Below are positions 21,507-31,535 of a stretch of DNA of 39,877 bases, one piece after another. Both the position numbers and the translations under genes were made by a program. Below the pieces are notes generated by a model. That model was not told where the DNA came from, made no database searches, and worked only from the letters and a program-made list of their open reading frames with translations. The stretch covers positions 1-39,877 of the forward strand of contig DUUV01000138.1 of the NCBI GenBank assembly GCA_012841375.1. Direction: 5' to 3'. Position 1 is the stretch's first letter. The number at the start of each line of letters is the position of its first letter. This stretch comes from Candidatus Fermentithermobacillaceae bacterium (GTDB lineage Bacteria; Bacillota; Sulfobacillia; Fermentithermobacillales; Fermentithermobacillaceae).

Positions 21507-22385
21507 TTAGTCTGTGGTGGACAGGCCGTCGACTGTCTTCAAGACCTCGTTCCAGATCGCCCTAATGCTTTCGGCTGCCCGGCCACCCGTTCTGGTGACG
21601 GGGAGTCCAAGAGCCATGGACTTTGGGACTTCTTCGTCAAAGGGTATACCTCCGATGACTCTAAACCGCGGACCGGACATGTCTTCGATCCGTTTCGAGT
21701 TGTCTTCGTGGATGTCGTGCTTATTGATAACGCAGTATGCAGGCACACCGAATCGCTCACATAGGGACAATGCCCGCTTCAGGTCGTGAATGGCAGTGAG
21801 GGACGGTTCGGTGACAAGTAGCGCCGCCGCCGCGTTGGAGAGAGATGCGATCACAGGGCACCCGATCCCGGGAGGGCCGTCAGTTATGATGAGGCGGCGA
21901 GACCCGTTTATTGCCACTTCCCTGGCCTTTTGCCTGACGAGAGCCACGAGCCTTCCCGAGTTCTCTTCTCCCGGTCCCAGCCGGGCGTGGACGAGCGGCC
22001 CTTTCTCGGTTGAAGATATGAACCATTCACCTGAGACAACCGGTCGCATCTCTATGGCGCCCGATGGACATGCCCTGGCACAGAGGCCACAACCTTCGCA
22101 GGAAAGATCATCGATGATTCCCGGGCAGGCGGCGTCAAAACGGCACAGTTGTCCGCAGAGACCGCACTCGACACACTCGGATGGGTCAACAAAGGCCTGG
22201 GAAGAGGCGATGAACGAGTGTCGCTCCATCTCTTCAGGACTGAGGACCAGAGCAAGATTGGCCGCGTCAACATCAGCGTCGCAGAAGACGGCGTCCGTCG
22301 ACAAGTCGGCGAAACCGGCTGTCACCGAGGTCTTGCCGGTACCTCCTTTGCCGCTCAACACCACTATCTCAATAGGTTTTGTCAT
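21507..22385 (-). CDS. MinD-superfamily P-loop ATPase with inserted 2[4Fe-4S] ferredoxin domain (second copy)
   Basis: A 292-residue deviant-Walker ATPase: SGKGGTGKTS at 11-20, the intermediate DADVDAANL, and a DGPPG switch region. Between them sits a ferredoxin domain with two complete cysteine groups, CVECGLCGQLC and CEGCGLCARAC. ATG 22385 overlaps the stop of the upstream ATPase (ATGA), so the two are coupled. This architecture (MinD superfamily P-loop ATPase containing an inserted ferredoxin domain) is widespread in anaerobes but not functionally defined. By relation to Mrp/NBP35 and CooC, it may couple ATP hydrolysis to handling of a metal cluster. It is the last gene of the unit. Confidence 0.9.
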   Translation of the reverse strand: MTKPIEIVVLSGKGGTGKTSVTAGFADLSTDAVFCDADVDAANLALVLSPEEMERHSFIASSQAFVDPSECVECGLCGQLCRFDAACPGIIDDLSCEGCGLCARACPSGAIEMRPVVSGEWFISSTEKGPLVHARLGPGEENSGRLVALVRQKAREVAINGSRRLIITDGPPGIGCPVIASLSNAAAALLVTEPSLTAIHDLKRALSLCERFGVPAYCVINKHDIHEDNSKRIEDMSGPRFRVIGGIPFDEEVPKSMALGLPVTRTGGRAAESIRAIWNEVLKTVDGLSTTD

Positions 22386-23305
22386 CGCTTTGGTCCTCCT
22401 TCCGCTGTGTCTCCCGTTCCCCTTTTCTCTGAGACCATCTGGATGGCTCTATCGAGAATGCCTGAGAACAGGGACTCGAAATTTGGAAGCACTTCCGCGG
22501 CTATGTAGCCGGCTGCCGAGACCCGGGCCATTTCTCTGTCCAGGTGAATCTCGGCGAGGAGTGGAATCTCGTTCGATTCGCAGAATCGCGTGACCCGGTC
22601 GTCACCGATCCCAGCGCGGTTCACTATCACAGCAGAAGGTATCCCGAGTCTGGTCACGGCTTCGTAAGCCAATTGGAGGTCGTGGAGTCCGAAGGGCGTG
22701 GGCTCGGTCACCAAGAGGCACAGGTCGCTTTTCTTTACAGACGCCATCATCGTACAGGAGGTACCGGGTGGTGAGTCGATGATTACCAGCCCGTTCGGGT
22801 CGGCCTCCCGGCGGACGCGTTTTGCGAGAGGAGCTGCCAATGCCTCCCCGGGGTTTAGAATCCCGTGGACGAAATCAATATCCCGGTACGAACCGGCCAA
22901 CCGTACCGGGCCGGTCTGCATTACTCCGATCTTCCTCGGGACCTCTGTAATGCACTTTTCCGGGCACAGGTAAGCGCAGGCCCCACACCCGTGGCAGAGC
23001 TCCGGGAGTACCAGCACTCTCTTGCCGGGTAGAATGGCGTGGAACGCGCAAGCTTCACCGCATAGTCCACATCTTGTGCACCGGGATTCGTCCACCCGGG
23101 GCACCGGTATCTCCACGTCCACAGACCGAGTTAGTTCCGGACGGAGGTAGATGTGGCAATTGGGTTCCTCGACGTCACAATCGAGGAGTTGGATCTTCGT
23201 GTCGCCGGAAGGGCCGCCGGAACGTCGAGCCAGAACCGCAGCAAGGTTGACTGCCACAGTCGTCTTGCCCGTACCGCCCTTCCCGCTCGCTATTGATACC
23301 TGCAC
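22382..23305 (-). CDS. MinD-superfamily P-loop ATPase with inserted 2[4Fe-4S] ferredoxin domain (first copy)
   Basis: A 307-residue paralogue of the next gene, with P-loop ASGKGGTGKTT near the N terminus, CDVEEPN as the aspartate-containing switch, cysteine groups CTRCGLCGEAC and CHGCGACAYLC, and a DSPPGTSC motif. The start is given as GTG 23305 because GGAGG lies seven bases upstream; the ATG at 23311 is only one base from that site. It is separated from the DUF5320 gene by about 150 bases, including a GC-rich hairpin, but no new promoter is evident. The two ATPases are probably partners, perhaps a heterodimer, since MinD-type proteins work as dimers across the nucleotide. Confidence 0.9.
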   Translation of the reverse strand: MQVSIASGKGGTGKTTVAVNLAAVLARRSGGPSGDTKIQLLDCDVEEPNCHIYLRPELTRSVDVEIPVPRVDESRCTRCGLCGEACAFHAILPGKRVLVLPELCHGCGACAYLCPEKCITEVPRKIGVMQTGPVRLAGSYRDIDFVHGILNPGEALAAPLAKRVRREADPNGLVIIDSPPGTSCTMMASVKKSDLCLLVTEPTPFGLHDLQLAYEAVTRLGIPSAVIVNRAGIGDDRVTRFCESNEIPLLAEIHLDREMARVSAAGYIAAEVLPNFESLFSGILDRAIQMVSEKRGTGDTAEGGPKR

Positions 23306-23376
23306 TTGCATACCTCCGCTCAGCGTGTTCATTCTGCTCGTACCAATGCTCAAACCTCCGGTGCCCGGTGGAACTG

Positions 23377-23453: not shown

Positions 23454-23894
23454 TCAGGACTCTTTCTTATCTCCGTCGTCGCCGTTCTTGTCTCGCTTCC
23501 GGGCCTCCTGGATCTCCTGGAGCCGTTCTTTTATGGATTCCAGCTCCTCCTTCAGGAATCTCTCCTCCTCATCGAGGGACTCTGCCGGCGGCTCATAGCC
23601 CCACGGCATTGCCCCGTAGGCATAGGGCGGGGGGACCATCGCGTTGGGGTACCCGTAACCCCGGCCGAATCCCATTCCGCGACCACGGCCTCTCCAAGGG
23701 CCTCTCCAAGGGCCTCTCCAGTATCCGTACGCCCTTCCAAAGCCCATTCCGTATCCGAAACCTCGTCCATAACCCATGCCTCTTTCAACGCCGGGGTTGG
23801 CATATCCGGGGGCACCGTAACCCGCGCAGAACCCCATGCCTCTACCCGTCATAGGCCCCTGGCCCCAAGGACCACTTCTATCTCCTCTTGGCAT
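23454..23894 (-). CDS. DUF5320-family Gly/Tyr/Arg-rich protein with C-terminal coiled coil
   Basis: A 146-residue protein. It opens with the DUF5320 hallmark MPRGDRSGPWGQGPMTGRGM and continues with a low-complexity Gly-, Tyr-, Phe- and Arg-rich central part (repeats such as GYGRGFGYG and RGPWRGPWRGRGRG) up to about residue 85. It ends in a charged predicted coiled coil (FLKEELESIKERLQEIQEA) and an Asp/Lys tail. No cysteine-based metal site: only one Cys. ATG 23894 follows AAGGGGGAA. Family members are recurrently next to NifX-like and MinD/ferredoxin genes in anaerobes; the molecular function is unknown. Confidence 0.85.
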   Translation of the reverse strand: MPRGDRSGPWGQGPMTGRGMGFCAGYGAPGYANPGVERGMGYGRGFGYGMGFGRAYGYWRGPWRGPWRGRGRGMGFGRGYGYPNAMVPPPYAYGAMPWGYEPPAESLDEEERFLKEELESIKERLQEIQEARKRDKNGDDGDKKES

Positions 23895-23940: not shown

Positions 23941-24189
23941 CTAGAACCATCTGGCAAACTTACTGTCTCCTTCACGTGACTGCAGGTACCTGCTTCGCCG
24001 ACCGTTTCTTGCACCGTACCCCAATGCAGCGCGGCCTCCGAAAAAGCGGCGCGCGATGCCACTGGCCGAGGCTCCGATGAAGTACCACAAACCGCCCTTT
24101 CGTCCCCAGAAACCTGCGGGGCAGATGCCCGCCTTTCTACCTGTTCCCGGACCATTGCCTTGAGGTCCCGTACCATCAAATCGTGGCAA
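23941..24189 (-). CDS. Small DUF5320-like protein
   Basis: An 82-residue basic protein starting MPRFDGTGPQGNGPGTGRKA when TTG 24189 is used, which matches the DUF5320 N-terminal pattern. AAAGGAGGTGA lies eight bases upstream of that TTG; an ATG at 24198 overlaps the binding site too closely. The middle contains short Gly/Ala-rich and aromatic stretches, and the C-terminal third is Arg-rich. There is one Cys near residue 22 (the GICPAGF segment). It appears to be a shorter sibling of the next gene and has no coiled-coil tail. Function unknown. Confidence 0.75.
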   Translation of the reverse strand: MPRFDGTGPQGNGPGTGRKAGICPAGFWGRKGGLWYFIGASASGIARRFFGGRAALGYGARNGRRSRYLQSREGDSKFARWF

Positions 24190-24266
24190 CACATTCACCT
24201 CCTTTTCGTTTCCTGTCCGGCCGGAACCGGTCGTCTTTCGTACCGGGATCTTATTTGCGGCGCAGA

Positions 24267-24647
24267 TTACTCCTTTTGTTTCCCGGACAGCCCGTGGTGC
24301 GAATCTACGGTTGCGCCGGAATGCTCACGGATTCGTCCCTGTTTGTACGCCTCCAGTGCGTCTTTGACCGTGTCTCCTTCTGGCGAGTACACAAGTATGC
24401 TGGCAGCCGACAGACCTGAGTGGGCGTTGGGGCCGATGTTGCGCGCCAGCACCGCCTCTACGCCATGGGACATAAGGAACTGCACCGTAGCGATAGCAGC
24501 TCCATGGGCCGATGAAGTGGATGGATTGGCGAAAGCCTGAGTATCGCCCGTCTCAGTATCGAACACTATGAAGTGACTGCAGCGTCCGAACCTTGGATCG
24601 ACTTTCGACTCCAGTGAATCACCCTGGGAACAGACTGCGACCTTCAT
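24267..24647 (-). CDS. NifX/NifB-type dinitrogenase iron-molybdenum cofactor family protein (copy 1)
   Basis: A 126-residue protein of the NifX/NifB C-terminal fold (Fe-Mo-co family): MKVAVCSQGDSLESKVDPRFGR at the N terminus split by SHFIVFDTETG, followed by HGVEAVLARNIGPNAHSGL. ATG 24647 is used; the frame extends to 24656 only through a GTG that lies within the GAGGTG binding site. No other nitrogenase genes are in the window, so a role in nitrogen fixation is unlikely. Such orphan proteins are thought to bind metal clusters or their precursors. It heads the second transcription unit, with a strong promoter and a palindrome directly upstream. Confidence 0.9.
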   Translation of the reverse strand: MKVAVCSQGDSLESKVDPRFGRCSHFIVFDTETGDTQAFANPSTSSAHGAAIATVQFLMSHGVEAVLARNIGPNAHSGLSAASILVYSPEGDTVKDALEAYKQGRIREHSGATVDSHHGLSGKQKE

Positions 24648-24685
24648 CGAAGACACCTCACACTTGACTTAATCCGATTCCGTAA

Positions 24686-24699
24686 TGGGTAAGTACCCA
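24686..24699 (-). promoter_or_regulatory. Perfect palindromic operator TGGGTA-N2-TACCCA
   Basis: TGGGTA-AG-TACCCA is a perfect 6+2+6 inverted repeat, five bases downstream of the -10 box and covering the predicted transcription start of the - strand unit beginning with the NifX-like gene. That is the position expected for a repressor site. A related element is at the same place in the other promoter of this cluster. Confidence 0.7.
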
Positions 24700-24704
24700 A
24701 AACC

Positions 24705-24732
24705 ATTCTATCTAGTTATGAATATATGTCAA
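24705..24732 (-). promoter_or_regulatory. Strong SigA-type promoter of the NifX-DUF5320-MinD unit
   Basis: Read on the - strand, -35 TTGACA (24732-24727, 6/6) and -10 TAGAAT (24710-24705, 5/6) are separated by 16 bases in an AT-rich stretch, which stands out against the GC-rich surroundings. It would start transcription near 24698, within the palindrome, about 50 bases before the ATG. Confidence 0.8.
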
Positions 24733-24799
24733 TAACCTTCAAAGAAAACATGGGATTTCTTGAGGGCGATTGAGGAGCGAGGAGAACCAAGGGGGAGAC

Positions 24800-24832
24800 G
24801 ACAAGTGCCCGCCTGGAGGGCGGGCGCTTGTC
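24800..24832 (-). terminator. Strong hairpin terminator after the upstream NifX-like gene
   Basis: GACAAGTGCCCGCC (24800-24813) and GGCGGGCGCTTGTC (24819-24832) form a 14-bp stem with one G-U pair and a five-base loop. Located just downstream of the NifX-like copy 2 and upstream of the next promoter, it divides the cluster into two transcription units. The - strand tail is TCGTCTCC, so U-richness is poor. Confidence 0.7.
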
Positions 24833-24897
24833 AATCAAGGAGATCGCCAGTCAAAGCCAAGAGTCCGCTCGCTTAGGGAGAGACTGCTCAGGCCGAC

Positions 24898-25230
24898 TCA
24901 ATCGTGCTCGCAGGTGCTCTTGCCGAGCTTTAGTGAACCATCGAGATATTTTGAGACGACTTCGTCGACATTTCCTTTAGCTCCGAGCACTACCTCTATA
25001 TTGTTTTGCTCAAAGAGTTGAACGGCTCTCGGCCCCATGCCGCCTGCGATGATGCAGTTCACGCCGTGGGACGCAAGATAGCCTGGGAGGACACCCGGCT
25101 GGTGTCCCGGGTTGGCCAGGGTCGATGAAGCGCCAACCTTCCCGTCCAGCACGTCATATAACTTGTACTCTGGGCAGTGGCCAAAGTGGGCCGAAACTTT
25201 CCCGTTTTCACAAGCAACGGCGATTCTCAA
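24898..25230 (-). CDS. NifX/NifB-type dinitrogenase iron-molybdenum cofactor family protein (copy 2)
   Basis: A 110-residue paralogue with the same fold: MRIAVACENGKVSAHFGHC then YKLYDVLDGKV, and HGVNCIIAGGMGPRAVQLF in the second half. It ends in KSTCEHD. Cys residues at the GHC and CEHD positions could bind metal. The start is TTG 25230, preceded by GGGAGGGG. It is separated from mrp by only 34 bases and is followed by a strong hairpin, making it the last gene of the first unit (DUF134-Mrp-NifX). It probably acts with Mrp in metal-cluster handling; no nif genes are present. Confidence 0.9.
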   Translation of the reverse strand: MRIAVACENGKVSAHFGHCPEYKLYDVLDGKVGASSTLANPGHQPGVLPGYLASHGVNCIIAGGMGPRAVQLFEQNNIEVVLGAKGNVDEVVSKYLDGSLKLGKSTCEHD

Positions 25231-25264
25231 CTTTATCTACCCCTCCCGGATTCTCGAATTATAC

Positions 25265-26098
25265 CTAGCGGCATTCAGAATCCCTAGTCAGACCTACTTT
25301 CTCCACCAACGAGTTGACGATGGTCGCCAGCGTCTCCGGCTTGTATTCTTCGATACGTCCTCTGTCTCCGAGTTCCGAGACCAGGGGATCCAGGGGCAGA
25401 GAGCCCAGGTAGTCAATTCCCATTTCGGCCGCCATCTCCCGAGCCCTTCCGGGTCCGAAAGGCTCCAGTCTCTCCCCGCACTTCGGGCATACCAGCCATC
25501 CCATGTTTTCCACCAGGCCGGCAATGGGAACGCCCATCATCTTGACCATGTTTACCGCTTTCTTGACCACCATGGCCGACAGGTCTTGAGGTGTGGAGAC
25601 GATTACGACCGAGTCCACCGGCAGGGACTGAAGGACGGTCAGCGGGACGTCGCCTGTTCCCGGAGGCAGATCCACAACCATGTAGTCTACCTCGCCCCAA
25701 AGGACATCCGACCAAAACTGCTTCACCGCGCCGGCGATCAGCGGTCCACGCCATATGACGGGTTCATCTTCTCTCTCCACAAGGAGGTTCAAGGACATGA
25801 CGTGTATGCCCGACCGGCTTTTCTCGGGCCTGAGCTGATTCCCGACCGTGGTTGGAGTCTCGGTTACGCCCAGCATTTTGGGAATGGACGGGCCTGTGAT
25901 GTCGGCGTCGAGCAGCGCTACCGAGAGGCCACGCCGGGCAATCTCTGTCGCTATCAGGGATGCTACTGACGACTTCCCGACACCGCCCTTGCCGCTCATT
26001 ACAGCGATCACGTGCTTTATGCTGCTATTGGCTGGCTGGGGCAGTTTCTCGATTCCGGTTGTCTGTCGTTGGGGGCTAGTCGTTCCTGCTTCCGGCAT
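25265..26098 (-). CDS. Mrp/NBP35-family iron-sulfur carrier ATPase
   Basis: A 277-residue Mrp-type ATPase. The P-loop MSGKGGVGKSS is at about 34-44; LDADITGPSIPKMLG, DLPPGTGD and VENMGWLVCPKCGERL are hallmarks, with the CPKC pair being the cluster-binding cysteines at the dimer interface. The N terminus is a short linker (residues 1-25) without the DUF59 domain. ATG 26098 is preceded by CAGGAGTG at good spacing; the upstream in-frame codons to 26149 lie before this site and would overlap the end of the DUF134 gene. Family members transfer [4Fe-4S] clusters to client apoproteins in an ATP-dependent way. Confidence 0.93.
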   Translation of the reverse strand: MPEAGTTSPQRQTTGIEKLPQPANSSIKHVIAVMSGKGGVGKSSVASLIATEIARRGLSVALLDADITGPSIPKMLGVTETPTTVGNQLRPEKSRSGIHVMSLNLLVEREDEPVIWRGPLIAGAVKQFWSDVLWGEVDYMVVDLPPGTGDVPLTVLQSLPVDSVVIVSTPQDLSAMVVKKAVNMVKMMGVPIAGLVENMGWLVCPKCGERLEPFGPGRAREMAAEMGIDYLGSLPLDPLVSELGDRGRIEEYKPETLATIVNSLVEKVGLTRDSECR

Positions 26099-26145
26099 GT
26101 GAGGATCACTCCTGTGTTGTTCTGTGGTGAGGGTCTTACTGAGCG

Positions 26146-26697
26146 TCAAGGCCCACGCCGCCGTCCGAATCCAGGACCCGGGCTCCTGCCGGGCCCATTC
26201 CCGTGTCCATGCCCATGTCTATGTCCGTTGCGCCGACCGCGCCCGCCGCCTGGACCGCCTCCGGGACCGACTGTCTGGAGTTGGTCCGGATGGACTCGGG
26301 CGCCGACGACGTCCTTGCACCCGCATTCCGGGCATGCGGGCTCACTCAAGTTCCGGTCTTCGTTTTTCCATTCAGAACCGCATTTTGTGCAGGTGAAGAA
26401 GAGAGGCGAGATGAGGTAGTTCCCACCCTCAACCCGGAGAGCTTTTCCTTCAATGAGAGCGGACGCGATCTTGTTCCTCGCGATCGTCAAGACCCTTTGG
26501 AAGGTGCTTTGCGCAATCCCCATTCGCTCAGCGCATTGTTCCTGGTCGAGACCGATTAAGTCTTTCAGCCGGATAGCTTCGACTTCGTCGAGGCCTAGAA
26601 CCACTTCCTCAAGGTCGCGCATGCGGACGCCCGCGGGTTTGAAGTAGGTCACACCAGGGCTGAATTCAACCCAACGGGGTTTCACGGGTCTGGGCAT
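26146..26697 (-). CDS. DUF134 helix-turn-helix protein with zinc-ribbon and Gly/His/Arg-rich tail
   Basis: A 183-residue protein starting MPRPVKPRWVEFSPG, the DUF134 pattern. Residues about 35-80 are a sigma-70 region-4-like helix-turn-helix (DEVEAIRLKDLIGLDQEQCA through STFQRVLTIARNKIA). Residues 103-127 form a zinc-ribbon-like cysteine set (C103-x2-C106 and C122-x2-C125 plus C127). Residues about 144-183 are a Gly/Arg/Pro tail with alternating histidines (HRHGHGHG). It is probably a DNA-binding regulator whose Cys/His parts sense metal or redox state, and is the best candidate for recognising the TGGGTA elements. ATG 26697 follows GGAGGGGTGA; an in-frame ATG at 26775 would be nearly leaderless. 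Confidence 0.85.
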   Translation of the reverse strand: MPRPVKPRWVEFSPGVTYFKPAGVRMRDLEEVVLGLDEVEAIRLKDLIGLDQEQCAERMGIAQSTFQRVLTIARNKIASALIEGKALRVEGGNYLISPLFFTCTKCGSEWKNEDRNLSEPACPECGCKDVVGARVHPDQLQTVGPGGGPGGGRGRRNGHRHGHGHGNGPGRSPGPGFGRRRGP

Positions 26698-26778
26698 TGT
26701 CACCCCTCCGATCTGGGACGCATCGCAACCGCATCCTCCGCTTGGTCCGGCGCCAGACGCGGTTGTGTTCTGCATATA

Positions 26779-26817
26779 TACCCATATCAATCTACAACTG
26801 GGCTTTGCGGGTGTCAA
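26779..26817 (-). promoter_or_regulatory. Promoter of the DUF134-Mrp-NifX unit with TGGGTA element
   Basis: On the - strand, -35 TTGACA (26817-26812, 6/6) and -10 TAGATT (26794-26789, 4/6) are 17 bases apart. Four bases beyond the -10 box comes TGGGTA-TA-TATGCA; its first half is identical to the operator of the NifX-DUF5320 promoter and the second half matches 4 of 6. The leader to ATG 26697 is about 85 bases and shows no riboswitch I recognise. Confidence 0.7.
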
Positions 26818-27062: not shown

Positions 27063-27083
27063 CATGTTATCGGGGTGATCTCC

Positions 27084-27698
27084 TTGGGTAGACGCGAGAT
27101 TGAAGAGAGACTGTTTGCCGACTTTGAGCCCCTGGCGAGGAGCGCCGGCGTGGAGCTCCTGGATGTCGAGATGCTGTCGGAGAACAAGATGACCGTGCTT
27201 CGGGCAACCATCTACCGGCCGGAAGGCATCACTCTCGACGACTGTGCCCGGGCGCAACGCATTCTTAGCGACAGGCTGGACGAGACCGACCCAATCCCGG
27301 GCAGTTATTCATTGGAGGTGTCGTCGCCCGGCATTGAGCGGGTACTGAGACGGCCGAAGGAGTTCGTTATTTACAGAGGTGAGCCGTGCCAGGTGAACCT
27401 GTTTGCTCCCAAAGACGGCAAGAGGGTCTTCGAGGGCAGACTGGTGGAACTGGCGGTTGAGCCGGACGGCGGCGAGACAGTAGTCATTGAGGTAGATGAT
27501 GAGGCAGGTCGCCGTGGGAAGTCCACAGGCGGGAAGTCGGAGTTCAAGGGATCGAACGCGCAAGTGAACGGGAGGAAGACGGAGCCTGTCCCGGGAGATC
27601 GGGCCGGAGGCCGGAGGTTGGTGTCGTTCGACCGCAAGAACGTGAGCAAGGTAAAACTTTTGTATAGAGACGAGAGATTCAAGAAGGGGCGGAACTAA
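27084..27698 (+). CDS. rimP: Ribosome maturation factor RimP
   Basis: A roughly 204-residue protein needed for 30S subunit maturation. The N-terminal domain shows GVELLDVEML and the family motif SLEVSSPGIERVLRRPKEF; the C-terminal SH3-like domain follows. It is longer than the usual 150-160 residues because of a hydrophilic insertion (about residues 140-180, rich in Gly, Lys, Ser and Arg) inside the C-terminal domain. TTG 27084 is preferred because GGGGTGATC is placed upstream of it; GTG 27075 is the alternative and lies within that site. It is the first gene of the superoperon with nusA. Confidence 0.95.
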   Translation: MGRREIEERLFADFEPLARSAGVELLDVEMLSENKMTVLRATIYRPEGITLDDCARAQRILSDRLDETDPIPGSYSLEVSSPGIERVLRRPKEFVIYRGEPCQVNLFAPKDGKRVFEGRLVELAVEPDGGETVVIEVDDEAGRRGKSTGGKSEFKGSNAQVNGRKTEPVPGDRAGGRRLVSFDRKNVSKVKLLYRDERFKKGRN

Positions 27699-27714
27699 GG
27701 GGGAGGCGGGAGCC

Positions 27715-28749
27715 GTGAACGGAGAGATCCTTGTTGCTCTGAACCAACTGGAGCGGGAGAGGGGCATCTCAGTTGACGACCTGATAGAGGCTTTGGAAGT
27801 CGCGCTCTTGTCGGCGTACCGGAAGCATGCCGGAGCTGCCGACAATGTCCGCGTGCAGTTTGAACGCCAAAGCGGTGCCATCAGAGTGCTCTCCCGGCGG
27901 GAGATCGTTGAGGCGGTGAGTGACCCAAAGACCCAGATTTCCCTGGCCGAGGCCCTGGAAAAGGACCCCGGGTACAAAGTCGGGGATTTTATCGAGGAGG
28001 AGCTGGCCGCCAAAGGTTTTGGACGCATCGCGGCACAGACAGCCAAACAAGTGGTCATGCAGAAACTTCGTGAGAAGGAACGGGGCATGATCTACGAAGA
28101 GTTCGCCGAAAGGGAAGGCGACGTCGTAACAGGACAGATAGTACGTGTGGAGCGGGGCGTTGTCATTGTGGACCTGGGCAGGGTCGAAGGGTTTATCCTG
28201 CCGCAAGAGCAGGTGCGGGGCGAGAAGTACAACGAGAGAGACCGGCTCAAGGCATACGTTCTCGAGGTGAGGAAGACCCCCAAGGGCCCCCAGATCCTTC
28301 TTTCCAGGACACATCCCGGGCTATTGAAAAGACTTTTTGAACTTGAGGTGCCGGAGATCCGCGATGGAGTCGTCGAGATCAGAGGGATCGCCCGGGAGGC
28401 CGGGATGCGCTCTAAGGTTGCCGTAAAGGCCGCCCTTCCCGAAGTTGACCCGCTGGGCGCGTGCGTAGGCCCGAGGGGTGCCCGTGTTCAGGCCATCAGC
28501 CAGGAGCTCAAGGGCGAGAGGATCGACGTTATAGAGTGGAGCGATGACCCCCGGGTTTTCGTGGCCAATGCTTTGAACCCGGCGAAGGTCCTCGGGGTCG
28601 ACATTAGTCCTGATGAACGCATTGCCCGGGTGACCGTTGCCGATCACCAGCTTTCGCTGGCCATCGGTCGCGACGGCCAGAACGCCCGCCTTGCAGCCAA
28701 ACTGACGGGACTGAAAGTTGACATCAAGTCGGACCGAGAGAGCCGCTGA
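27715..28749 (+). CDS. nusA: Transcription termination/antitermination protein NusA
   Basis: A 344-residue NusA of standard Firmicute length. An N-terminal RNA polymerase-binding domain (ILVALNQLERERGISVDDLI) is followed by an S1 domain (about 130-200, GQIVRVERGVVIVDLGRVEG) and two KH domains, the second including the SLAIGRDGQNARLAAKLTG signature. The acidic C-terminal repeats of Escherichia coli NusA are absent, as usual in Gram-positives. The start is GTG 27715, preceded by GGGAGGCGGGAG. It regulates pausing, termination and antitermination. Confidence 0.97.
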   Translation: MNGEILVALNQLERERGISVDDLIEALEVALLSAYRKHAGAADNVRVQFERQSGAIRVLSRREIVEAVSDPKTQISLAEALEKDPGYKVGDFIEEELAAKGFGRIAAQTAKQVVMQKLREKERGMIYEEFAEREGDVVTGQIVRVERGVVIVDLGRVEGFILPQEQVRGEKYNERDRLKAYVLEVRKTPKGPQILLSRTHPGLLKRLFELEVPEIRDGVVEIRGIAREAGMRSKVAVKAALPEVDPLGACVGPRGARVQAISQELKGERIDVIEWSDDPRVFVANALNPAKVLGVDISPDERIARVTVADHQLSLAIGRDGQNARLAAKLTGLKVDIKSDRESR

Positions 28750-28819
28750 TATGAAGGTAACCAGGGTAACCATGAGGAGGTTACACGTAAGCATGTAGAC
28801 TTCAGAGGAGGTGGGGGGA

Positions 28820-29098
28820 ATGCCCAGAAGGCTGCCGCAGAGGACTTGCCTGGGCTGTCAGACAGTGAAACCTAAGAGGGAAATGATAAGGATTGTTCGC
28901 ACTCCTCTAGGAGGCCTTATCATAGACGAGACAGGCAAGAAGTCCGGCAGAGGTGCCTACGTGTGTCCCAACTTGGATTGCTTGGAGCTTCTGAGAAAGG
29001 GAAAACGTTTGGAAAGAATTCTGGAAGTCCCTCCGCCTCCTTCTCTATTTGAGGAGCTGCGGGAGCGGATTCTGACAATTAGCGACAACCGGAGGTGA
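28820..29098 (+). CDS. rnpM: RNase P modulator RnpM (YlxR, DUF448)
   Basis: A 92-residue YlxR-family protein. The signature RTCLGC (C10, C13) opens the protein, followed by KREMIRIVRTPLGGLIIDETGKK and GRGAYVC, all typical. ATG 28820 is used; GAGGAGGTGGGGGGA lies just upstream, and the GTG at 28811 is part of that stretch. It binds RNase P RNA and modulates tRNA processing in Bacillus. Its usual companion ylxQ, a ribosomal L7Ae-like gene, is missing: infB starts eight bases later. Confidence 0.93.
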   Translation: MPRRLPQRTCLGCQTVKPKREMIRIVRTPLGGLIIDETGKKSGRGAYVCPNLDCLELLRKGKRLERILEVPPPPSLFEELRERILTISDNRR

Positions 29099-29105
29099 CC
29101 GCCGG

Positions 29106-31535
29106 ATGGCAAACCGCATCCGCGTGTATGAGATAGCAAAAGAACTTGGTGTAGACTCAAAAGATGTGATAACCGCTCTTACCCAGATTGGAGTTCCTGT
29201 CAAAAATCACATGGCCGCTTTGACGGACGAGGCGGCAGAGAAGGTCAAGCAGAGACTGACCACTGCGGCGAAGTCGGAGCGACCACAGAAACCCACAGCG
29301 GGCGCGAGCGCGCCTTCGCGACGTCCGGCCGCCCAGGCGGGTGCAGGCAAGAGATCAGAGCCTCAGGGTTCTCAGAGAACTCCTGGTCAGGCACAGACTC
29401 CCCAGAGATCCGGTCAGACACAGCCTCAAGAGAGGCAAACTCGCGGTCAGGCTCAGAGGCCTACGCCTCAGCCCCAGGTTTCGCAGAAGAGCGCTCCTAG
29501 CGGCACTGCTCCTCAGCCAGGCCAAAGGCCTGCTCCCCAGAGGCAGGGCTCCCAGACGCCAGGGCAGGTTCCCGGACGTGACCCCAGGCATTCGCCTGGC
29601 CCGCAAGGCTCCAGGCAGCCGTATCAAGGCAGAGGAGGGCAACGGTCATATCAGTCGAGGGGTCCCCAGTCCCGCGGCCCAAGGCATGGAGGCGGCTATC
29701 GTGGGCGCCGTCAGGACAACAGGAGTCAGGGGCGAAGGCCTCCCCAGTACCCCGGAGGCGAGAAGCCCGGCGCTCGTAGAGTGACGATCCAAGGTCCCAT
29801 CGGCGTTCGCGACCTGGCGAGTCTGGTGGGCTTGCCCGCCACCAACATCCTGCGAGCCCTCATGAGCGCGGGGATGCTCATAAGCATCAATCAGAACGTA
29901 CCCGCCGAGGTAGCAGTCAAGATCGCCGAGAAACTCGGCTGCATAGTTACGGTCAAGGAACCGGAAAAGACCCAAGAAGAGCTCATTGCCAGCGAACTCG
30001 AGAGGGAAGACGACCCCGAGGTTTCAGTGTTGCGTCCTCCGGTAGTGACCGTCATGGGCCACGTTGACCACGGCAAGACTTCTCTTCTCGACGCTATGAG
30101 GGACACCAACGTCACGGCGAAGGAAGCCGGGGGGATAACCCAGCATATCGGTGCGTCTCTGGTTGAGCACGGCGAAAATCGCATTATCTTCCTCGATACT
30201 CCGGGTCACGAAGCCTTTACGGCTATGAGGGCCAGGGGCGCCAAGGTCACCGACGTGGCGGTGCTTGTGGTCGCCGCAGACGACGGCGTCATGCCCCAGA
30301 CGATAGAAGCCATCAACCATGCCAAAGCCGCAGGAGTCCCCATCATCGTCGCCCTGAACAAGATGGATAAGCCTGGCGTCAAGCCCGACAGGGTCAAGCA
30401 ACAGCTTTCGGACGCGGGCCTTGTCCCTGAGGAGTGGGGCGGGGATACCGTGATCGTGCCTGTCTCGGCCAAGACCAGAGAAGGCGTGGACGACCTTCTG
30501 GAGATGATCGTTCTGGTCGCCGAGATGCAGGAGGTTAAGACCGATCCGACGAGAAAGGGACGCGGCTATATCATCGAGTCGCAGATGGACAAAGGCAGAG
30601 GGCCGGTGGCTACCGCTCTCATAAGGTCCGGGGTCCTGCAGGTGGGCGACGTGATCATAACCGACACCACCTGGGGACGCATAAGGACCATGTTCGATGC
30701 TCGCGGGCGACAGGTGAAGAAAGCCGGGCCCGCCACTCCTGTCGAACTGGTCGGTCTGGAGGAAGTACCTCTGGCAGGAGACATGTTCCTCGTTGTGGAC
30801 GACGAGAAGATCGCCAGAGATGTGAGTGAGCGCAGGAAGACGGCCAGGAGGGCCCAGGAGCTTGAGTCCACCCACACCATGACGCTTGAGGAACTGTTCA
30901 AACGCCAGGAAGAAGGGGTCAAGACCGACCTTTCGGTGATAGTCAAGAGCGACGTCCAGGGTTCTCTTGAGGCTATTCTCCAAGCTTTGGGCAAAGTCAA
31001 GAGCACCGAAGTCAGGCTCAACGTGATCCACTCGGGTGTGGGCGCGGTTATCGAGTCAGACGTGATGCTGGCCAAGGCGTCAGGCAACGCCCGCATCCTG
31101 GGGTTCAACGTCCGTCCGGATGCCGGCGCGAGGAGCTTGGCTGAAGAGCTGGGTATAGAGATACGCACCTATCGAGTGATATACGACCTCTTGGATGACA
31201 TTGACGCTATGCTGAAGGGGCTACTCAAGCCCAAGACCGAAGAGGTGGTGCTCGGCCGGGCCGAGGTGCGCCAGACGTTCCACGTTCCCAGGGCCGGCAC
31301 AGTCGCGGGCTGCTATGTGACCGAAGGAAAGGTCGGCCGCCAGGCGTCGGTGCGACTACTGCGTGACGGCGTCATCGTCTACGAGGGGAAGATGTCTTCT
31401 CTTCGCAGGTTCAAAGATGATGTGTCGGAAGTCAGCGCCGGCTATGAATGCGGTATCGGCTTGGAGAGGTTCCAGGATATAAAGCCGGGCGATGTCATCG
31501 AGGCCTTTACGGTGAGAGAAGTCCCGCAGTCGTAA
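29106..31535 (+). CDS. infB: Translation initiation factor IF-2
   Basis: An 809-residue GTPase that brings initiator tRNA to the 30S subunit. The N terminus (residues 1-50) is an IF2N domain; residues about 50-225 are a low-complexity Gln/Pro/Arg/Gly-rich linker, with a second IF2N domain about 230-280. The G domain starts at GHVDHGKT (318-325), followed by DTPGHE and NKMD. Domains II, III and IV follow to the C terminus. ATG 29106 is preceded by GGAGGTGA. The linker is strongly basic and may help binding to RNA or ribosome. Confidence 0.98.
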   Translation: MANRIRVYEIAKELGVDSKDVITALTQIGVPVKNHMAALTDEAAEKVKQRLTTAAKSERPQKPTAGASAPSRRPAAQAGAGKRSEPQGSQRTPGQAQTPQRSGQTQPQERQTRGQAQRPTPQPQVSQKSAPSGTAPQPGQRPAPQRQGSQTPGQVPGRDPRHSPGPQGSRQPYQGRGGQRSYQSRGPQSRGPRHGGGYRGRRQDNRSQGRRPPQYPGGEKPGARRVTIQGPIGVRDLASLVGLPATNILRALMSAGMLISINQNVPAEVAVKIAEKLGCIVTVKEPEKTQEELIASELEREDDPEVSVLRPPVVTVMGHVDHGKTSLLDAMRDTNVTAKEAGGITQHIGASLVEHGENRIIFLDTPGHEAFTAMRARGAKVTDVAVLVVAADDGVMPQTIEAINHAKAAGVPIIVALNKMDKPGVKPDRVKQQLSDAGLVPEEWGGDTVIVPVSAKTREGVDDLLEMIVLVAEMQEVKTDPTRKGRGYIIESQMDKGRGPVATALIRSGVLQVGDVIITDTTWGRIRTMFDARGRQVKKAGPATPVELVGLEEVPLAGDMFLVVDDEKIARDVSERRKTARRAQELESTHTMTLEELFKRQEEGVKTDLSVIVKSDVQGSLEAILQALGKVKSTEVRLNVIHSGVGAVIESDVMLAKASGNARILGFNVRPDAGARSLAEELGIEIRTYRVIYDLLDDIDAMLKGLLKPKTEEVVLGRAEVRQTFHVPRAGTVAGCYVTEGKVGRQASVRLLRDGVIVYEGKMSSLRRFKDDVSEVSAGYECGIGLERFQDIKPGDVIEAFTVREVPQS

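Follow-up and report, generated by a model that had tools for sequence, protein, structure and literature searches.

The palindrome shared by the two promoters of a NifX/Mrp/MinD/DUF5320 gene cluster is very likely (probability roughly 0.84) the operator of the DUF134 protein encoded in the same cluster, which would repress both transcription units; binding, dimerisation, repression and the signal are all inferred. DUF134 itself very probably binds DNA and regulates its own gene together with these metal-cluster genes, most likely by repression, a reading that has no binding, footprint or expression data behind it. The sites, their conservation and the covariation between operator bases and protein residues are shown here by computation. 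By the window we mean the whole stretch of DNA analysed, 39,877 nucleotides of contig DUUV01000138.1 from a Candidatus Fermentithermobacillaceae bacterium (assembly GCA_012841375.1) with a genome of 2.37 Mb, in which the dyads were recorded on the minus strand.

The cluster consists of two co-directional units on the minus strand, DUF134-Mrp-NifXa (26697 to 24898) and NifXb-DUF5320a-DUF5320b-MinD1-MinD2 (24647 to 21507), each with its own sigma70-type promoter. These promoters, P_nifXb and P_DUF134, are the two top promoter-like sites in a 7-kb stretch (11/12 and 10/12). A previous sequence-only reading had placed TGGGTA-N2-TACCCA five bases past the -10 box of the promoter at 24705-24732 and TGGGTA-N2-TATGCA four bases past that of the promoter at 26789-26817, which held to the base, and had given both a perfect TTGACA -35 box, which held as well. 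Its claim that a single element is common to both promoters and lies over the start site was also confirmed and could be extended: the element is a 22-bp dyad with an ATAT centre, present in three copies rather than two, copy A on the -35 box of P_nifXb having been missed (Table 1). Divergent from the DUF134 unit, positions 27075-31535 of the plus strand hold a translation/transcription operon of the rimP-nusA-ylxR-infB type, as read from the ORF sequences.

Table 1. Promoters, predicted operators and genes of the cluster (positions in the window)
Feature	Position	Strand	Basis or remark
P_DUF134, promoter of the DUF134-Mrp-NifXa unit	26789..26817	-	Consensus match only; TTGACA 26817-26812, 17-bp spacer, TAGATT 26794-26789, then four bases, TGGGTATATATGCA 26784-26771
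P_nifXb, promoter of the NifXb-DUF5320-DUF5320-MinD-MinD unit	24705..24732	-	Consensus match only; TTGACA 24732-24727, 16-bp spacer, TAGAAT 24710-24705, then five bases, TGGGTACTTACCCA 24699-24686
Predicted DUF134 operator in P_DUF134, GATATGGGTATATATGCAGAAC	26767..26788	-	Abuts -10 box, covers predicted start site; core 26771-26784 as in the sequence-only reading
Predicted DUF134 operator copy A in P_nifXb, GTTATTGACATATATTCATAAC	24715..24736	-	Contains -35 TTGACA
Predicted DUF134 operator copy B in P_nifXb, GTTTTGGGTACTTACCCATTAC	24682..24703	-	Begins one base beyond -10 box; includes perfect 14-mer 24686-24699
DUF134 protein, 183 aa	26146..26697	-	Pfam PF02001, E=2.9e-24; proposed autorepressor
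Mrp/NBP35-type P-loop NTPase (Fe-S carrier family)	25265..26098	-	PF10609, E=3e-92
NifX/ORP-like protein a (Nitro_FeMo-Co)	24898..25230	-	PF02579, E=6.6e-21
NifX/ORP-like protein b, leads second unit	24267..24647	-	PF02579, E=4.9e-23
DUF5320 protein a	23941..24192	-	PF17253, E=2.3e-7
DUF5320 protein b	23454..23894	-	PF17253, E=3e-24
MinD-type ATPase, two 4Fe-4S motifs (Orp3/Orp4-like)	22382..23353	-	
Second MinD-type ATPase, 4Fe-4S motifs	21507..22385	-	

Matches to the 14-mer with up to three mismatches are no more frequent in the window than chance predicts (8 against 10.2 expected); the 14-mer alone is therefore weak evidence and was dropped as such, and the original inference rested on position. 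In its perfect form, TGGGTA-N2-TACCCA occurs once in the 2.37-Mb genome. The regions upstream of DUF134 in relatives carry a longer dyad centred on ATAT, giving a 22-bp palindrome, RWWWTKRRYATATRYYMAWWWY; within the same family, genus g4 has GTTATCGATATATATCGATAAC at this site, and L056, from a different family of the class, has the perfect GATATGGGTATATACCCATATC. Since longer dyads are found in these and in the same-genus genome G001, TGGGTA-N2-TACCCA is the core of a local form. The local operator core is very likely TATGGGTATATACCCATA and the wider form ATTATGRRCATATGYYCATAAT, again without binding data. With up to two mismatches, the 22-bp pattern has five matches in the genome, of which three are in P_nifXb and P_DUF134, and its reversed control has none anywhere in the 2.37 Mb. 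The two matches outside the promoters overlie coding sequence: one (C39:6549) lies inside a phage-tail-like frame and was judged a chance match, and the other (C89:16541, equal to L222:2542-2563), with two mismatches, overlies the start codon of gdhA (glutamate dehydrogenase) and is probably chance as well.

All three window sites are retained in the genus-mate G001 (L035), where the operator of P_DUF134 recurs with near-identical sequence in the equal place, copy B is conserved and copy A is identical. Copy A fits the family pattern without a mismatch, better than copy B does. The centres of the two copies are 33 bp apart, or about three helical turns, a phasing that is only approximate. The Mrp promoter of L032 likewise has two operator copies, and an arrangement overlapping the -35 box as in copy A is also found there and in L061/L099. 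Conservation in relatives upstream of DUF134 and NifX genes, which the sequence-only reading had named as a check, was thus found.

The operator accompanies DUF134 far beyond this family. Using a motif model without base preference at positions 9 and 14, a score of at least 10 and a limit of 300 bp upstream, it was detected in front of 113 of 264 non-redundant DUF134 genes, as against 1.2% of Markov-shuffled upstream regions, in members of the Bacillota, Chloroflexota, Desulfobacterota and Nanoarchaeota. Loci held out from the first set, after which those of the latter three phyla were sampled, carried it in 56 of 135 cases (new Bacillota 9/40, Desulfobacterota 30/48, Nanoarchaeota 7/28 and Chloroflexota 10/19). 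De novo, the most enriched 8-mer was GCATATGC (37 of 262 upstream regions vs 1.85 expected) and the most enriched dyad TTATG-N10-CATAA (27 upstream regions vs 0.2 expected). The site centre most commonly lies at +6 from the predicted start, the place of the two elements first read in the window, and nearly all other sites fall within the core promoter (-35, spacer, -10 or start site); this discrete placement may partly reflect the resemblance of the motif itself to the -35 and -10 hexamers. At the same score, more than half of the DUF134 genes have no detected site; possibly some of them are internal in operons and others use diverged sites. DUF134 genes of the SRHTFGR type (His at 64; L423, L421, L425, L446 and L453) have upstream dyads of a different kind, CTCATTTGAGC and GGCTTATTCTC, and could perhaps represent a third specificity class.

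The identity of the binder is best indicated by the operator bases themselves. Gln-adenine and Arg-guanine are textbook pairings. With the motif model blind at positions 9 and 14, proteins with Q63 went with T9/A14 in 27:0 cases and those with R63 with C9/G14 in 76:0 (Fisher 2e-25), a further ten sites (one Q63, nine R63) having mixed or other bases. The rule was recorded before the held-out loci were examined, in which it held 12:0 for Q63-T/A and 41:0 for R63-C/G (p=4e-12); a further set gave 19 C/G and one other for R63, and one T/A for Q63. Mutual information across 96 residues and 11 half-site positions was highest for the pairs 63-9 (0.69) and 67-8 (0.56), against a permutation maximum of 0.28, and in the AF2 model residues 63, 67 and 71 follow one another at intervals of one turn along the predicted recognition helix. 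Three genomes (G543, G647 and G670) each carry both DUF134 types, every gene with its matching operator. The window protein has Q63, and both sites of the sequence-only reading are T9/A14, fitting the class; copy A is mixed C/A because TTGACA fills that half-site. On the best tree of the remaining DUF134 domain, Q/R and T/A-C/G each changed at least five times. Only one joint contrast lies entirely on well-supported branches, and the Fisher values therefore overstate independence: few of the residue switches can be counted as fully independent on this tree, and phylogenetic independence is limited. DUF134 is the best-supported binder, because the operator precedes DUF134 genes across phyla and its bases covary with recognition-helix residues. 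This cross-phylum placement and covariation support the earlier proposal of DUF134 as regulator and autoregulator, for which there are no binding data, and the window gene does have a 22-bp operator within its own promoter. That the two promoters share one operator also agrees with the claim of repression by one regulator, of which the repressive sign is only inferred.

The window protein is a full member of its family (85.9 bits to PF02001 vs a gathering cut-off of 27). It has, as had been read, a helix-turn-helix (HTH; recognition helix AQSTFQRVL, with Q63 and Q67), a CxxC..CxxC ribbon and a His/Gly/Arg-rich tail, and its AF2 model has a pLDDT of 82; a Cys ribbon follows the HTH in 130 of 305 DUF134 matches. 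When the complete model was used for a fold search, zinc-ribbon proteins (HypA, MCM) made up most of the matches, with poor rmsd, and only matches over 40-50 residues of the HTH (DeoR, sigma region 4) were tight. The nearest solved relative is the DNA-binding domain of Bacillus subtilis DeoR (SorC/DeoR subfamily, PDB 7bhy/8r7y; E=1.6e-5, 0.6-0.7 A over 40 residues), in which R34 and R39 touch bases (PMC11229326); these align with DUF134 residues 63 and 68, matched by their five-residue spacing. The two share the HTH and an SRPT-x-x-R recognition helix, and the DeoR half-site TTGAACA resembles DUF134 operators of the TGAACA type. Unlike DeoR, DUF134 has an N-terminal PRPxKxRxVxFxPxVTYFKPAG segment and a Cys ribbon or NifX-type domain in place of the sugar-binding SorC effector domain, which is absent from the window protein (its only Pfam matches are DUF134 and, weakly, an HTH model). 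Fusions of DUF134 to a C-terminal NifX/Nitro_FeMo-Co domain occur in several phyla (L073, L038, L396, L398, L088, L170, L289, L286, L293, L172, L090, L087, L091 and L196/L197), five of them confirmed by Pfam (L073, L088, L170, L197 and L090).

Besides DUF134, sites within clusters precede genes for NifX (window, L035, L047), Mrp (L032, L050) and DUF5320 (L060). Sites also occur away from DUF134: on other contigs than its own before DUF5320 genes (G041, G093) and a NifX gene (G043), and in G008 about 306 kb from it, directly behind a TTGACA...TATAAT promoter and before a DUF5320-like gene, so called only from the Gly/His-rich start and charged tail of its product, which has no Pfam match at 0.01. 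Candidate sites in G012, G009 and G004 (1024015) and one shared by G014/G015 lie inside coding frames and were rejected. Perfect sites number ten in 154 genomes of the class, all in DUF134-positive genomes, and where DUF134 is missing from a genome of the family, so is NifX. In the family's genera g3 and g4 (L034, L036, L041, L042, L043), a FeoA-like frame ends just upstream of DUF134; read by eye, this is at most a hint of a possible link to iron.

The gene content resembles the ORP operons of Desulfovibrio vulgaris, which comprise a NifX-type ORP, Mrp/NBP35 and two MinD-type ATPases with 4Fe-4S motifs and are controlled by sigma54 with a cognate regulator (PMC6345978); a NifX-type protein, Mrp and two Fe-S MinD proteins likewise occur together in the window. 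In contrast to the divergent sigma54 promoters of those operons, the co-directional units of the window have strong sigma70-type promoters (no sigma54 scan was made) with a putative DUF134 operator. MrpORP has two domains (NTPase and Di-Nase), whereas the window Mrp is a ParA-type NTPase only, without a C-terminal NifX domain. Some DUF134 sites share a TGAACA-N2-TGTTCA-like core with ArsR/SmtB operators, but those of the window and most others have different flanks and accompany DUF134 rather than ArsR genes. At four loci (L239, L243, L246, L253), ArsR-type genes have TTGAACATATNTTCAA-like dyads in front, which are likely ArsR autoregulatory sites resembling R-type DUF134 operators; the genome-wide pattern also catches such sites of similar core.

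Among the rival explanations, the one that survives best, though unlikely, is that DUF134 binds as an activator or dual regulator: the sign cannot be read from sequence, and copy A lies over the -35 region. Against it, sites fall on the -35 box, spacer, -10 box or start site, and the two window promoters, each with a perfect TTGACA, do not require an activator. A second rival, that another regulator with a similar site (e.g., an ArsR/SmtB-type metal repressor) is the binder and DUF134 merely one target, draws on matches to the class pattern that precede ArsR-type genes and share the TGAACATATNTTCA core. We consider it very unlikely, as just one of the 46 loci that bear a site and span at least 6 kb has an ArsR-like gene nearby and the window has none, operator bases covary with DUF134 residues, and the site tracks DUF134 across phyla and among paralogues within one genome. 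It is also very unlikely that only the 14-bp TGGGTA-N2-TACCCA matters and copy A is a coincidence of TTGACA. The bases of copy A are indeed constrained by the -35 hexamer, but its exact match to the family pattern and identity in G001 speak against coincidence, as do the -35-overlapping sites in P_DUF134 of L061 and the Mrp promoter of L032, which have no TGGGTA half at that position. Chance occurrence of short AT-rich palindromes near promoters, for which the lack of enrichment of the mismatched 14-mer could be cited, is all but excluded by the shuffle controls, the residue covariation and the held-out phyla, the last of which refute it.

In the preferred reading, DUF134 would bind the 22-bp palindrome, probably as a dimer with one HTH on each half-site, the recognition helix reading the centre-proximal bases through residue 63 (positions 9/14; Q for T:A, R for C:G) and residue 67 (position 8). 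Bound protein would cover the -10-to-start region of P_DUF134 and P_nifXb, and in P_nifXb the further site that overlaps the -35 box, 33 bp from the first, would tighten control, so that DUF134 may repress both its own unit and that led by NifXb. It is the position of the palindrome, over the start region and the -35 box, that leads us to infer repression and autoregulation. A metal or Fe-S-related signal would presumably lift the repression via the Cys ribbon or NifX-type proteins; sensing of metal or cluster state is inferred from the CxxC..CxxC ribbon, the His-rich tail and the DUF134-NifX fusions, and the response to iron or oxidation suggested by the sequence-only reading remains an inference. 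A bolder reading, less likely than not, makes DUF134 a repressor that senses and feeds back on a metal-sulfur cluster pathway of anaerobes: NifX/ORP-type proteins, fused to it in some lineages, would signal to the HTH whether cluster or metal is bound, and the HTH would thereby release a conserved operator common to bacteria and archaea.

A search of the open-access literature (subscription papers were outside its scope) found no functional study of DUF134, UPF0251, COG1342 or PF02001. The family, which occurs in bacteria and archaea, has no assigned function, and the present analysis proposes for it a DNA site, a residue-base code resting on two residues, and a regulon. How the genes for NifX/ORP, Mrp, MinD and DUF5320 are controlled, in a metal-cluster pathway of anaerobes that is still poorly understood, can thereby be put to a direct test, and the DUF134-NifX fusions point to a possible sensed partner or signal.
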